Below, piece by piece: positions 21,101-50,408 of a stretch of DNA of 64,000 nucleotides (position 1 is its first letter; the number at the start of each line of letters is the position of its first letter). Source of the DNA: Arenicola marina (Eukaryota > Annelida > Polychaeta > Arenicolidae); the NCBI GenBank assembly GCA_964019135.1, contig OZ025257.1:30521835-30585834 (forward strand), given 5' to 3'. The position numbers and the translations under genes are program-made. The notes below the pieces were generated by a model, which was given only the letters and a program-made list of their open reading frames with translations, was not told the DNA's origin and made no database searches.

Positions 21101-24100
21101 TTAACTTTATAAAAGCTAATGATATAACATTGTACTTTATTTACTTACAGTTTATACCAGAAATTTTATGTTATAAAGAAGACTTAATTACCATTCTCAT
21201 AATATATATATATGCAGATATGAATGATGTTGTAACCTGCTTACTTCAATCAAGCGATTTATTGCATGCTTATAATTAGATTGTTGTATACATCTAATTA
21301 TAGCTTCATGAAAAGAGTTAATAAAAAAAGTTATTATCTCAAGTATAAATCATATTAATTGTATTATTTTCCTTCTATTATCATTTTAAGCAGCAGTGCT
21401 TTCCAAATTGTGATGGCATGGTAATCAATAAAGTTATATTTCCTATGCCAGATCATGCATTTATATCACACTAAATGTGTAGTTTGATGCAATAAAAGAC
21501 ACCACTTCCACTTGAATGATCAATGGTTTCTCCTTGGAAAAATTTGGAAAATCTTAATTAAGCTGGTTAATAAGTTAATTTACTTTTGGTGTCTTGTACA
21601 TTTCAATAGCACCATGTAATAAATATGTCACATATTGCTTTAGTGATATATTTTTTCCTATTTAATATCTAATTTTTTGAAGCGATTGTTTTCACAACTG
21701 TTTACATGTAGTGCTAATGAAATTCAAATAAATATTGTTTTTCTCTCAATATGTTTTAGTGGCCTAATCAGGTGTAAAAAAGCCAGAGAATTGATAATGA
21801 GATTAAGAGTAAATACTTCTATATTATTTGTAAGATATGCAGCCCAAATCTATATAAGTTATGTCAACTCAGTATCAAGAACATTTTTCCCTTGCTTGAT
21901 TGCTCTGTAAAAATTCCAAGATTCTACTAAAAACTACTACTACTCTAAAGATGTCAACAGACTGGCATCAAAGGAAGGGTGACAGGCTTGAGATCATGGG
22001 CAGTTTGGTAGAGCTCTGTTTGGATGCTGATTTGTAATAATTAATTTTCATTAAAGAAAATTGTTTAAGGCATGCTATCATCCCTAAACTGTGTGCAATA
22101 CATCCTAAACTGAAATTGCCAATAAAATATGTTTAAACTAAACTGAAAAGTTATAATTAGGTATATAACATTTCTGAAATTCACGGGAGCAAAAGGCTTT
22201 TTTTTTCGAAACATGAAATGGAATGTGTAAATATGTAATATGTAGATATATGTAGTAACTTGGGAGATGCATGAATAATCTCATAACATTGTAAATCCTT
22301 CAATCTATGGCTTATGACACATAACAGATACATAAGCATATACCTGGTGTAAAAACTGGGACGTAGCCGCGAAAGACACACTGTGTTCGGTTGCCAGGCC
22401 CACAGCCGTGACTGATTCACCGCTGCCTAGCCCTCCCTCACGTCACGCGGCCTCTATGGATGTTCGCCGCCTGGGCCAGTGACCCCGGTGCACTCAGGCA
22501 GCGATCAGCTACTCGTGTGTACAGCAACTTCGCCACTTGTTCATCGCTGCAGATTTGATGCCGCCTCTTCACTCATTCCAGCGGTCAATTTGGCCTACAA
22601 TTCTTATTCTTGATGCTCTCTGTCCCTGCACTCTCGGTCCCTTTTCCGGGCAGATTTTTATTCAAACTTTCGTTGCCTTGTGGCCATTCTTGTGGTTTTC
22701 ACTACTGTGCACAAACAGAGCAGAACCTCAAGACAGAATATATTTATTTGACACAGGAGTTGGTAATACAAAAATGATAGAACATACTGCTCTAAGCATA
22801 CATATCTTACAACCAGTACAAAGAAATTACTTTACAGAAAACAATATCGTTCATTTACTTTTTACTTGCTACCTTTATCGTCAAATATTGTTTGAACCTA
22901 ATTAATTGTTTCTTCCAGAATACACAGTTATTGCCGCCCCACTGACTTTGGCTGCAGACAATGGAGACATTATTCAACAAGCCATTGTTCAGCAGGTGGC
23001 CACCTCCGAACAGGAAAATATTGACCCACAATCTCAGGTAATTAGTACAAGTAGTGTGCGTTGTATGAATCCACTTCTGACAATATTATGTTTGACATTC
23101 ATTTAAGTGTTGTGTTGGTGTGATTTTTCCCAGATAAGCATCTGTTCATGAGTATCTGTTAATGTGTACCTCTCTGTGCTTGTTGCAGGTGTTGATGATA
23201 CAGCCTATTACTGTCAATGCCGCTGGGGACCAGCTAGATGGACAGTTCATACAGCACACACAGTTCCAGATCCTACATGACCAGGCCTCTTTGGAACAAC
23301 TACAACAGATCCAGGCTGTCCTTCAGGAGCAAGGAGTGTTACAGCTGCCACATGATGGGATCCATCATGCTATTCTCCAGGATGGAAGTCAGGTGAACGA
23401 CTTGTGACGGTCGAACTTCAACTTGATGTTTCCATATCATAGAAAATAGCTTTGTTTCAAAATAGTCCAGCTTTTAATTACAAATTACCTATAAGCTAGA
23501 GACATAACGATTTCCATACAGCTGGTTTGTAAGCTGGATGCATTATGATTAAAGCTGGTCTGTAATCTGGATGCATTAGGATTACATCTGGTCGTAAGCT
23601 GGATGCATTATGATTACATCTGATCGTAAGCTGGATGCATTATGATTACATCTGGTCGGTAAGCTGGATGCATTATGATTACATCTGGTCGGTAAGCTGG
23701 ATTCAGAATGCTTACAGTTGGCCTGTGAGCTGGAGATTTTATGTTTACAATTGACCTATAAACTGGAGACATTAATGATTTCCATTACAACTTGGCTGTG
23801 AGTTGAAACCTTATCTTTATCATTTCCATGACAGCTGACCTGTAAGTTGAAACCTTATCTTCATCATTTCCATGACAGCTGGCCTGTAAGCTGGAAGGAG
23901 ACTCACAGCCGCTGCAGGAGCTCCAGCAGCAGCAGATCATACAGCTCTCGTCCGCCCAGCTGTCTGCCGAACTGCAGCAACAGCTACAGACGATGCATGA
24001 GGTTGAGCAGCAGCAGCTGCTTCAGGAGAAAGTGGCTGCGGCAGTCCTCCCGCCTCCTGTCATGGCTGCCCCCAGGGCGAAAGACCTCGTCAAGCCACCG

Positions 24101-48974: not shown

Positions 48975-50408
48975 TCATTGCACCCCTAGCCCCTCATTAC
49001 ACCTCTAGCCCCTCATTACACCTCTAGCACCTCATTACACCTCTAGCACCTCATTACACCCCTAGCCCCTCATTACACCTCTAGCCCCTCATTGCACCCC
49101 GAGCCCCTCATTACACCCCTAGCCCCTCATTACACCTCTAGCACCTCATTACACCTCTAGCACCTCATTGCACCCCGAGCCCCTCATTACACCTCTAGCC
49201 CCTCATTACACCCCTAGCCCCTCATTACACCTCTAGCACCTCATTACACCCCTAGCCCCTCATTACACCTCTAGCCCCTCATTACACCTCTAGCCCCTCA
49301 TTACACCTCTAGCCCCTCATTACACCTCTAGCCCCTCATTACACCTCTAGCCCCTCATTACACCCCGAGCCCCTCATTACACCTCTAGCCCCTCATTACA
49401 CCTCTAGCACCTCATTACACCCCTAGCCCCTCATTACACCTCTAGCCCCTCATTGCACCCCGAGCCCCTCATTACACCTCTAGCCCCTCATTACACCTCT
49501 AGCCCCTCATTACACCTCTAGCCCCTCATTACACCTCTAGCCCCTCATTACACCCCGAGCCCCTCATTACACCTCTAGCCCCTCATTACACCTCTAGCCC
49601 CTCATTACACCTCTAGCCCCTCATTACACCTCTAGCCCCTCATTACACCCCTAGCCCCTCATTACACCTCTAGCACCTCATTACACCCCTAGCCCCTCAT
49701 TACACCTCTAGCCCCTCATTGCACCCCGAGCCCCTCATTACACCTCTAGCCCCTCATTACACCTCTAGCCCCTCATTACACCTCTAGCCCCTCATTACAC
49801 CTCTAGCCCCTCATTACACCTCTAGCACCTCATTACACCTCTAGCCCCTCATTACACTTCTAGCCCCTCATTACACCTCTAGCCCCTCATTACACCTCTA
49901 GCACTTAATTACACCTCTAGCCCCTCATTACACCTCTCGCACCTCATTACACCTCTAGCCCCTCATTACACCTCTAGCACCTCATTACCCCTCTAGCCCC
50001 TCATTACACTTCTAGCCCCTCATTACACCTCTAGCCCCTCATTACACCTCTAGCACCTCATTACACCTCTAGCACCTCATTACACCTCTAGCACCTCATT
50101 ACACCTCTAGCCCCTCATTACACCTCTAGCACCTCATTAGACCTCTAGCACCTCATTACACCTCTAGCACCTCATGACACCTCTAGCACCTTATTACACT
50201 TAATTACATCTCTAGCACCTCATTACACCTCTAGCACCTCATCACACCTCTAGCACCTCATTACACCTCTAGCACCTCATTACACCTCTAGCCCCTCATT
50301 ACACCTCTAGCCCCTCATTACACCTCAGTACACCTCATTACACCTCTAGCACCTCATTACACTTCATTACACCTCTGGCACCTCATTACACCTTATTACA
50401 CCTCTAGC
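48975..50408 (+). repeat. 19-bp minisatellite starting at the exon 27 donor, about 75 copies
   Basis: Unit cctcattacacctctagcc, starting about six bases after atg|gtgagt. Each unit ends in ctctag after a pyrimidine-rich run, resembling a weak 3' splice site. Confidence 0.92.

Follow-up and report, generated by a model that had tools for sequence, protein, structure and literature searches.

Tandem repeats whose units cross exon-intron borders have been described in amphioxus under the name of mirages, in Adh3, in globins, and in other genes. Their units range from 10 to 160 bp, their length is unstable, and regular splicing is reported to be undisturbed (PMC3087553, PMC3902484; accessible portions of both reports). 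Here we describe arrays of this kind in a ZNF236-like C2H2 zinc-finger gene (22919..48969, + strand), which lies in a 64,000-nucleotide stretch of an annelid-like genome (C10:30521835-30585834 of an 867-Mb assembly; hereafter the window, whose first base is position 1). The real splice junction lies inside the repeat unit in eight of 18 arrays in the introns of this gene. These arrays are probably mirage-type minisatellites in a genome rich in locus-specific minisatellites, where duplications that cross exon borders would be tolerated through exon-proximal splicing.

The structural likeness to the amphioxus cases is close. In Adh3, BflGb6 and BflGb9, PGBD5, and troponin C, as far as the accessible descriptions go, a minisatellite-like unit spans the border, many of the repeats carry AG or GT, and donors as well as acceptors are involved. 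All of this recurs here. Units that span a junction together with its splice signal are found in eight arrays of the ZNF236-like gene and in two of a myosin gene, with introns 3 and 17 of the former as weak cases. Both boundaries are represented (four donors and four acceptors in ZNF236, one of each in myosin), and the units measure 33-79 bp in ZNF236 and 81 and 124 bp in myosin. The sequence-only reading of this locus knew no named class for such arrays, whereas the amphioxus work had already provided one. The differences concern scale, host, and type of evidence. In the accessible portions of the amphioxus reports, one mirage each is described in BflGb6 and BflGb9, whereas a single gene here holds eight, with up to 79 copies. 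The amphioxus mirages belong to Cephalochordata, a taxonomic rather than structural attribute, and the present gene pairs with that of Paralvinella in a genome whose samples consist of array for about 38% of their bases. Splicing of the amphioxus mirages was examined with transcripts; the arrays described here are known from genomic sequence alone.

Two further systems share part of this pattern. Intronic minisatellites of earthworm metallothionein genes (PMC12783039) likewise concern an annelid and an array inside an intron. Their monomers of about 180 bp lie in the first intron, and the accessible text reports no junction within the unit. A gain of an intron through tandem duplication of genomic DNA is described for a potato RdRp gene (PMC4974935), where the duplication likewise lies within a gene and affects its splicing pattern. 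As far as the accessible part of that report goes, one intron was gained there, whereas existing junctions have been copied into arrays here. Our searches of open-licence PMC papers, which listed 2-20 papers each, turned up no mirages from any host but amphioxus. As far as these searches show, what is new here is the group of animals in which the mirages occur and the kind of genome around them.

The gene was modeled by hand. The model comprises 26 exons, which correspond to exons 2-27 in the numbering of the sequence-only reading (kept here), and the 5' and 3' ends of the gene lie outside it. Each of its 25 internal introns has GT-AG ends, and its exons together form a frame of 1803 codons without a stop. 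Both properties are partly built in, because splice sites were picked by hand with both in mind. Independent support comes from ten aligned orthologues (annelids, molluscs, a nemertean, a brachiopod, a hemichordate, amphioxus, and vertebrates), in which the alignment crosses four junctions (introns 5, 8, 13, and 21) without indels and a fifth, that of intron 24, almost as cleanly. In a search of 5.8 billion proteins, the best 120 of 756 matches were mostly ZNF236 of many animals, and the top match among those listed was that of the annelid Paralvinella palmiformis, with 50% identity over the whole length. A tree of 33 proteins pairs the query with Paralvinella (Shimodaira-Hasegawa-like approximate likelihood ratio test, SH-aLRT, 99) and joins Branchiostoma to the vertebrates (96). 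An amphioxus origin, which the mirage literature had suggested at first, is rejected by this tree, and the source is annelid-like. A firm label is weakened by two points: the tree covers one gene, in which two other annelids, Capitella and Owenia, fall outside the query-Paralvinella pair, and the letter make-up of the query was flagged as unusual.

Tandem Repeats Finder located 18 arrays in introns 2-26, and their edges were fixed by wraparound alignment. They account for 73% of the intronic sequence; 15 of the 25 introns contain at least one, and 10 have none. These counts cover neither the two arrays wholly within exons 4 and 27 nor the arrays of intron 27, the far end of which lies outside the window. 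The eight junction-containing arrays carry 3-22 exonic bases in their units. Four include an acceptor. In intron 5, a 52-bp unit is present in about 23 copies (25254..26470, +) and includes the acceptor at 26454/26455 with 16 exonic bases, its AG being intact in 23/23 copies. A 41-bp unit in intron 13 (31653..32090, +; about 11 copies) spans 32079/32080 with 11 exonic bases and AG in 10/11, and a 52-bp unit in intron 21 (39123..40857, +; about 33 copies) spans 40837/40838 with 20 exonic bases and AG in 33/34. The 44-bp array of intron 3 (23772..23896, +) includes 18 exonic bases and AG in 2/3 copies at an acceptor placed at 23878/23879. This position is uncertain, because orthologues lack the extra residues; another AG, some 30 bases further downstream, could be the real acceptor.

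The other four arrays include a donor. In intron 8, a 33-bp unit in about 25 copies (27355..28183, +) spans 27376/27377 with 22 exonic bases (GT 25/25). In intron 24, a two-copy array of 79 bp (42761..42929, +) spans 42781/42782 with 21 exonic bases (GT 2/2), and in intron 26 a unit of 53/54 bp (47560..48231, +; about 12 copies) spans 47573/47574 with 14 exonic bases (GT 12/12). The fourth, a 48-bp unit in about 78 copies (33668..37415, +), starts three bases before the intron 17 donor at 33670/33671, with GT in 79/79; it counts as weak in that the exon shares only CAG with the array. The sequence-only reading had listed at least nine introns with a splice site in the unit. Eight of these hold (3, 5, 8, 13, 17, 21, 24, and 26, with the reservation on intron 3), whereas the 44-bp array of intron 4 (24114..24337, +) only abuts its junction: it starts four bases past the donor (24109/24110), and its unit carries a donor-like GTCAGT but no junction.

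The direction of copying can be read from two of these units. In the intron 21 unit, the exonic bases code for GEKPYRC when one base of the preceding exon is added; those in the intron 8 unit code for NLRAHIH. Similar residues occupy these positions in the ten aligned ZNF236 orthologues across phyla, so the array copies derive from the exon rather than the reverse. Recurrent tandem duplication across junctions, as proposed in the sequence-only reading, gains support from this similarity.

A second gene displays the same arrangement. A myosin-head search of the genome returned 77 exon matches, from which one 5-kb stretch (L049) was picked by exon position only. The repeat finder reported two arrays in it, both of which span a junction. 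The first has an 81-bp unit in 2.5 copies and includes a donor with 28 exonic bases; the second has a 124-bp unit in 2.0 copies and includes an acceptor with 37 exonic bases. Three exons of this stretch join in one frame. In the acceptor array (L049:4331-4582), the exon part of the upstream copy is still coding-like and differs by a few bases, and the array is a two-copy mirage, perhaps at an early stage. The length of open frames was considered as a genome-wide proxy for arrays beside exons and was dropped, as two L049 exons of equal value have stops between them.

Whether junctions are hit more often than expected depends on what chance is allowed to do. According to the sequence-only reading, chance would place most arrays in mid-intron. 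When arrays are confined to introns, the observed arrangement, with 10 of 18 arrays overlapping a junction or lying at most five bases from it, was indeed reached in 0 of 20000 simulations. That null model is unfair, because a duplicated segment can extend into the exon without harm. In a fairer version, the segment was allowed 15, 22, 30, or 40 bases into the exon; 2.9, 3.9, 4.6, and 5.3 junction-containing arrays are then expected in ZNF236 against eight seen (P 0.002, 0.016, 0.053, and 0.12, respectively). With the myosin arrays added, 10 of 20 contain a junction (P 0.0001, 0.002, 0.012, and 0.037 at the same depths), and removal of the uncertain arrays of introns 3 and 17 from this set leaves 8 of 18 (P 0.002-0.11 from 15 to 40 bases). 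Placement of arrays in any intron gives nine overlapping arrays against 3.0 or 4.4 expected (P 0.0009 or 0.016 at depths of 22 or 40). The array of intron 4 counts as overlapping in the any-intron and in-intron models, by one base of an overlapping repeat-finder row, and as non-overlapping in the exon-depth test. With arrays collapsed, the introns are 38-484 bases long, and the units have 12-79 bases. Given introns this short for their units, up to about one third of arrays would be expected to overlap a junction by chance, so that mid-intron placement to the degree assumed in the sequence-only reading is not supported. The junction excess therefore lies between 1.5-fold and about threefold (1.5- to 2.7-fold in the exon-depth test of ZNF236), and its significance depends on the assumption made.

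This dependence bears on a rival explanation, in which junctions are true duplication hot spots. The border itself, through recurring MAG|GT microhomology, chromatin, or R-loops, would then attract the founding duplication. The excess is significant when intrusion is limited to 15-22 bases, with or without myosin, and again when arrays may fall in any intron, and one seam lies at a donor CAGGT (intron 17). At depths of 30-40 bases, however, the P values rise to the upper values given above, and they do so also when the uncertain arrays are set aside. Arrays close to a junction that is not part of their unit show little excess: three have a gap of up to 13 bases (four with intron 4), against about 2-2.5 expected at a depth of 22. 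Arrays are moreover common in arbitrary samples of the genome, and the junction pattern comes from two genes only. We hold a hot-spot origin to be unlikely; junctions may still be mildly favored, although this is not established.

The preferred explanation, mirage-type minisatellites tolerated by splicing, would involve three steps. A segment of about 20-120 bp would first be duplicated in tandem, sometimes with short direct repeats at its two ends. Such founding duplications would be broadly placed, so that a fair share of them crosses exon borders where introns are short. Slippage or unequal exchange would then expand and homogenize the copies, so that the splice signal, along with the exonic bases next to it, would be repeated within the intron up to tens of times. 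The gene would survive in the third step because the spliceosome keeps the exon-proximal copy, which is the first donor or the last acceptor, and leaves exonic sequence and frame unchanged; exon definition presumably favors the site next to the exon. The open frame weakly and indirectly suggests that the authentic junctions would be the ones used. The sequence-only reading had also proposed that selection keeps the exon-side copy intact. This proposal fits the unbroken frame, which is in turn partly a product of how the model was built. Selection probably also removes segments that reach deep into an exon. The mean exonic share of the ten junction units (ZNF236 and myosin) is 0.33 against 0.5 under random placement (P 0.028), which may reflect selection against deep intrusion.

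The seams of the arrays bear on the first step. Among 16 of the 19 arrays of the gene (the first of intron 3 and those of introns 16 and 22 were left out), seven have an overlap of 4-12 bases. The chance of at least four exact bases at a seam is 0.023; the seam measure tolerates mismatches, so the two measures are not identical. Ordinary intronic minisatellites (variable number tandem repeats, VNTRs) share the unit size, the high identity, and short overlaps at part of their seams. Unlike them, eight of the 18 units here include a junction. Several observations weigh against the preferred explanation. Seams without a clear short overlap, with filler or an ambiguous join, make up nine of the 16. 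Arrays are present at two other myosin exon loci (L047 and L048), none of them at the exon match. Wholly unbiased duplication may also be too simple, given the significant excess over chance with 15-22 exonic bases allowed (P 0.002-0.016 for ZNF236 and 0.0001-0.002 with myosin) and with arrays placed in any intron.

A further possibility is that the copies are functional, in that arrays of decoy splice sites regulate ZNF236 splicing and are kept by selection. The splice dinucleotide is intact in 186 of 189 unit copies across the eight junction arrays. The intron 8 array is free of stops in the coding frame throughout, at 11 residues per unit, so that use of a distal donor would lengthen the protein by 11-residue repeats without a frameshift. 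The other seven junction units, by contrast, are not a multiple of three or contain an in-frame stop. In six arrays (those of introns 3 and 24 have too few copies), 27-81% of other column pairs are at least as well conserved as the splice pair. The splice pair thus displays no sign of selection on the copies, as would fit neutral ones. Selection on decoy copies had been taken up as a candidate when 186 of 189 looked high, and it was set aside after this column-by-column control gave nothing. Arrays also fill arbitrary stretches on other contigs. Altogether, regulation by decoy sites appears very unlikely.

The wider genome provides the setting in which border-crossing duplications could sometimes arise. 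Twenty 2-kb samples (L027-L046), drawn in advance from contigs C1-C14 only, with C11-C14 represented by their first 25 Mb, have on average 37.6% of their bases in arrays with a period of at least 10 (bootstrap 22-54%). Three of four 10-kb stretches, hand-chosen at round positions, are wholly array, and the fourth contains 2%. Among 51 arrays longer than 400 bp, only four pairs show relatedness; three of these pairs come from a single sampled stretch, and the fourth is adjacent. Array units are therefore locus-specific. The 200 kb after the window are mostly array as well. The arrays of the ZNF236-like gene thus probably show at one locus what holds for the genome at large, and the genome looks minisatellite-inflated. 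To our knowledge, a genome with about one third of locus-specific minisatellite would be unusual. The Alvinella pompejana genome, by contrast, is given as 23.3% repetitive in the accessible part of its report (PMC12403961).

A single array of a 33-bp unit extends over about 94 kb in the right flank (L009-L018), with others of about 22, 12, and 10 kb in the same 200 kb. Beside it lies an open frame with the motif PDGGYG (L018:5449-5973, minus strand), which is reminiscent of how SLC16 transporters begin. To the left, the window is poor in arrays, with a 316-bp tandem repeat of 2.6 copies and 95% match at 18995-19810. A reverse transcriptase fragment at 9170-9799 (minus strand; PF00078, E 1.8e-12) marks a retroelement to the left of the gene. 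Only one of seven open frames scanned in that part had a Pfam match, to a reverse transcriptase, and no usable control gene was found there.

The remaining arrays of the gene have no junction in their unit, and four of them lie close to one. The 22-bp array of intron 10 (28907..30042, +) starts five bases past the donor, as does a 19-bp array in about 75 copies in intron 27 (48975..50402, +; donor 48969/48970), in agreement with the distance of about six bases noted earlier. Arrays that had been placed near the acceptors of introns 16 and 24 do end close to them: a 12-bp array (33380..33502, +) ends 12 bases before the first, and a 44-bp array (45289..46483, +) ends 13 bases before the second. 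Six arrays were omitted from the sequence-only reading, none of which is near a junction. They comprise the first array of intron 3 (33 bp; 23517..23734, +; 124 bases from a junction), those of intron 12 (61 bp; 30746..31134, +; 71 bases from the donor), intron 19 (19 bp; 38287..38369, +; 22 from the donor), intron 22 (32/64 bp; 41460..41683, +; 70 from the acceptor), and intron 23 (43 bp; 41957..42368, +; 63 from the donor), and the second of intron 24 (52 bp; 42992..45257, +; 210 from the donor). Overall, the observation made in that reading is partly confirmed and its interpretation partly supported.

Intron 10 fits the idea that introns arose or grew by such duplications; for the globins of amphioxus, intron gain through duplication of a proto-splice site has been put forward. 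Intron 10 is nearly all array, from five bases past the donor to 11 before the acceptor, and this model was proposed earlier for mirages. Most arrayed introns, by contrast, retain unique flanks, and no indels separate the gene from its orthologues where introns 5, 8, 13, and 21 meet their exons. We consider such an origin of these introns highly improbable.

The right end of the gene raises the question of assembly. A search with four homologues did not recover the last ZNF236 exons from the 200 kb that follow the window. A scaffold gap of 200 N follows the window directly (C10:30585835-30586034), and the best match in the same genome to the C-terminal ZNF236 fingers lies 277 kb rightward on the minus strand (C10:30862327-30862530; 72% identity, next best 55%). 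This match is the probable place of the last exons. Because of the gap and the opposite strand, the scaffold may have the wrong orientation beyond this point; a misoriented contig or a real inversion would account for the change of strand. A wrong scaffold at that point would be in line with the view that the arrays, or their placement at junctions, result from collapse or misjoining of long reads. Within the window, however, there is no N, the copies differ from one another, and the 26 exons follow in order in one frame; the same pattern appears in a second gene on another contig. An assembly artefact is hence scarcely credible as the source of the arrays.

These results take mirages beyond amphioxus and link them to a plausible cause, a minisatellite-rich genome. 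A bolder extension would make junctions real hot spots in annelids as in amphioxus, such that, in a minisatellite-inflated genome, many exact decoy splice sites, from tens to hundreds per gene, would be present in a large share of genes and would have to be passed over in exon definition. We regard this extension as doubtful; hot spots, if true, would amount to a natural experiment on splice-site choice and intron growth. Arrays of this type could also confuse gene prediction. The ZNF236-like gene itself contains up to about 178 intact extra splice-site copies (186 minus the eight real ones). It thereby allows a direct test of how the spliceosome chooses the exon-proximal site among many identical neighbors, and it is also a case for asking whether such arrays can lead to intron growth or gain.

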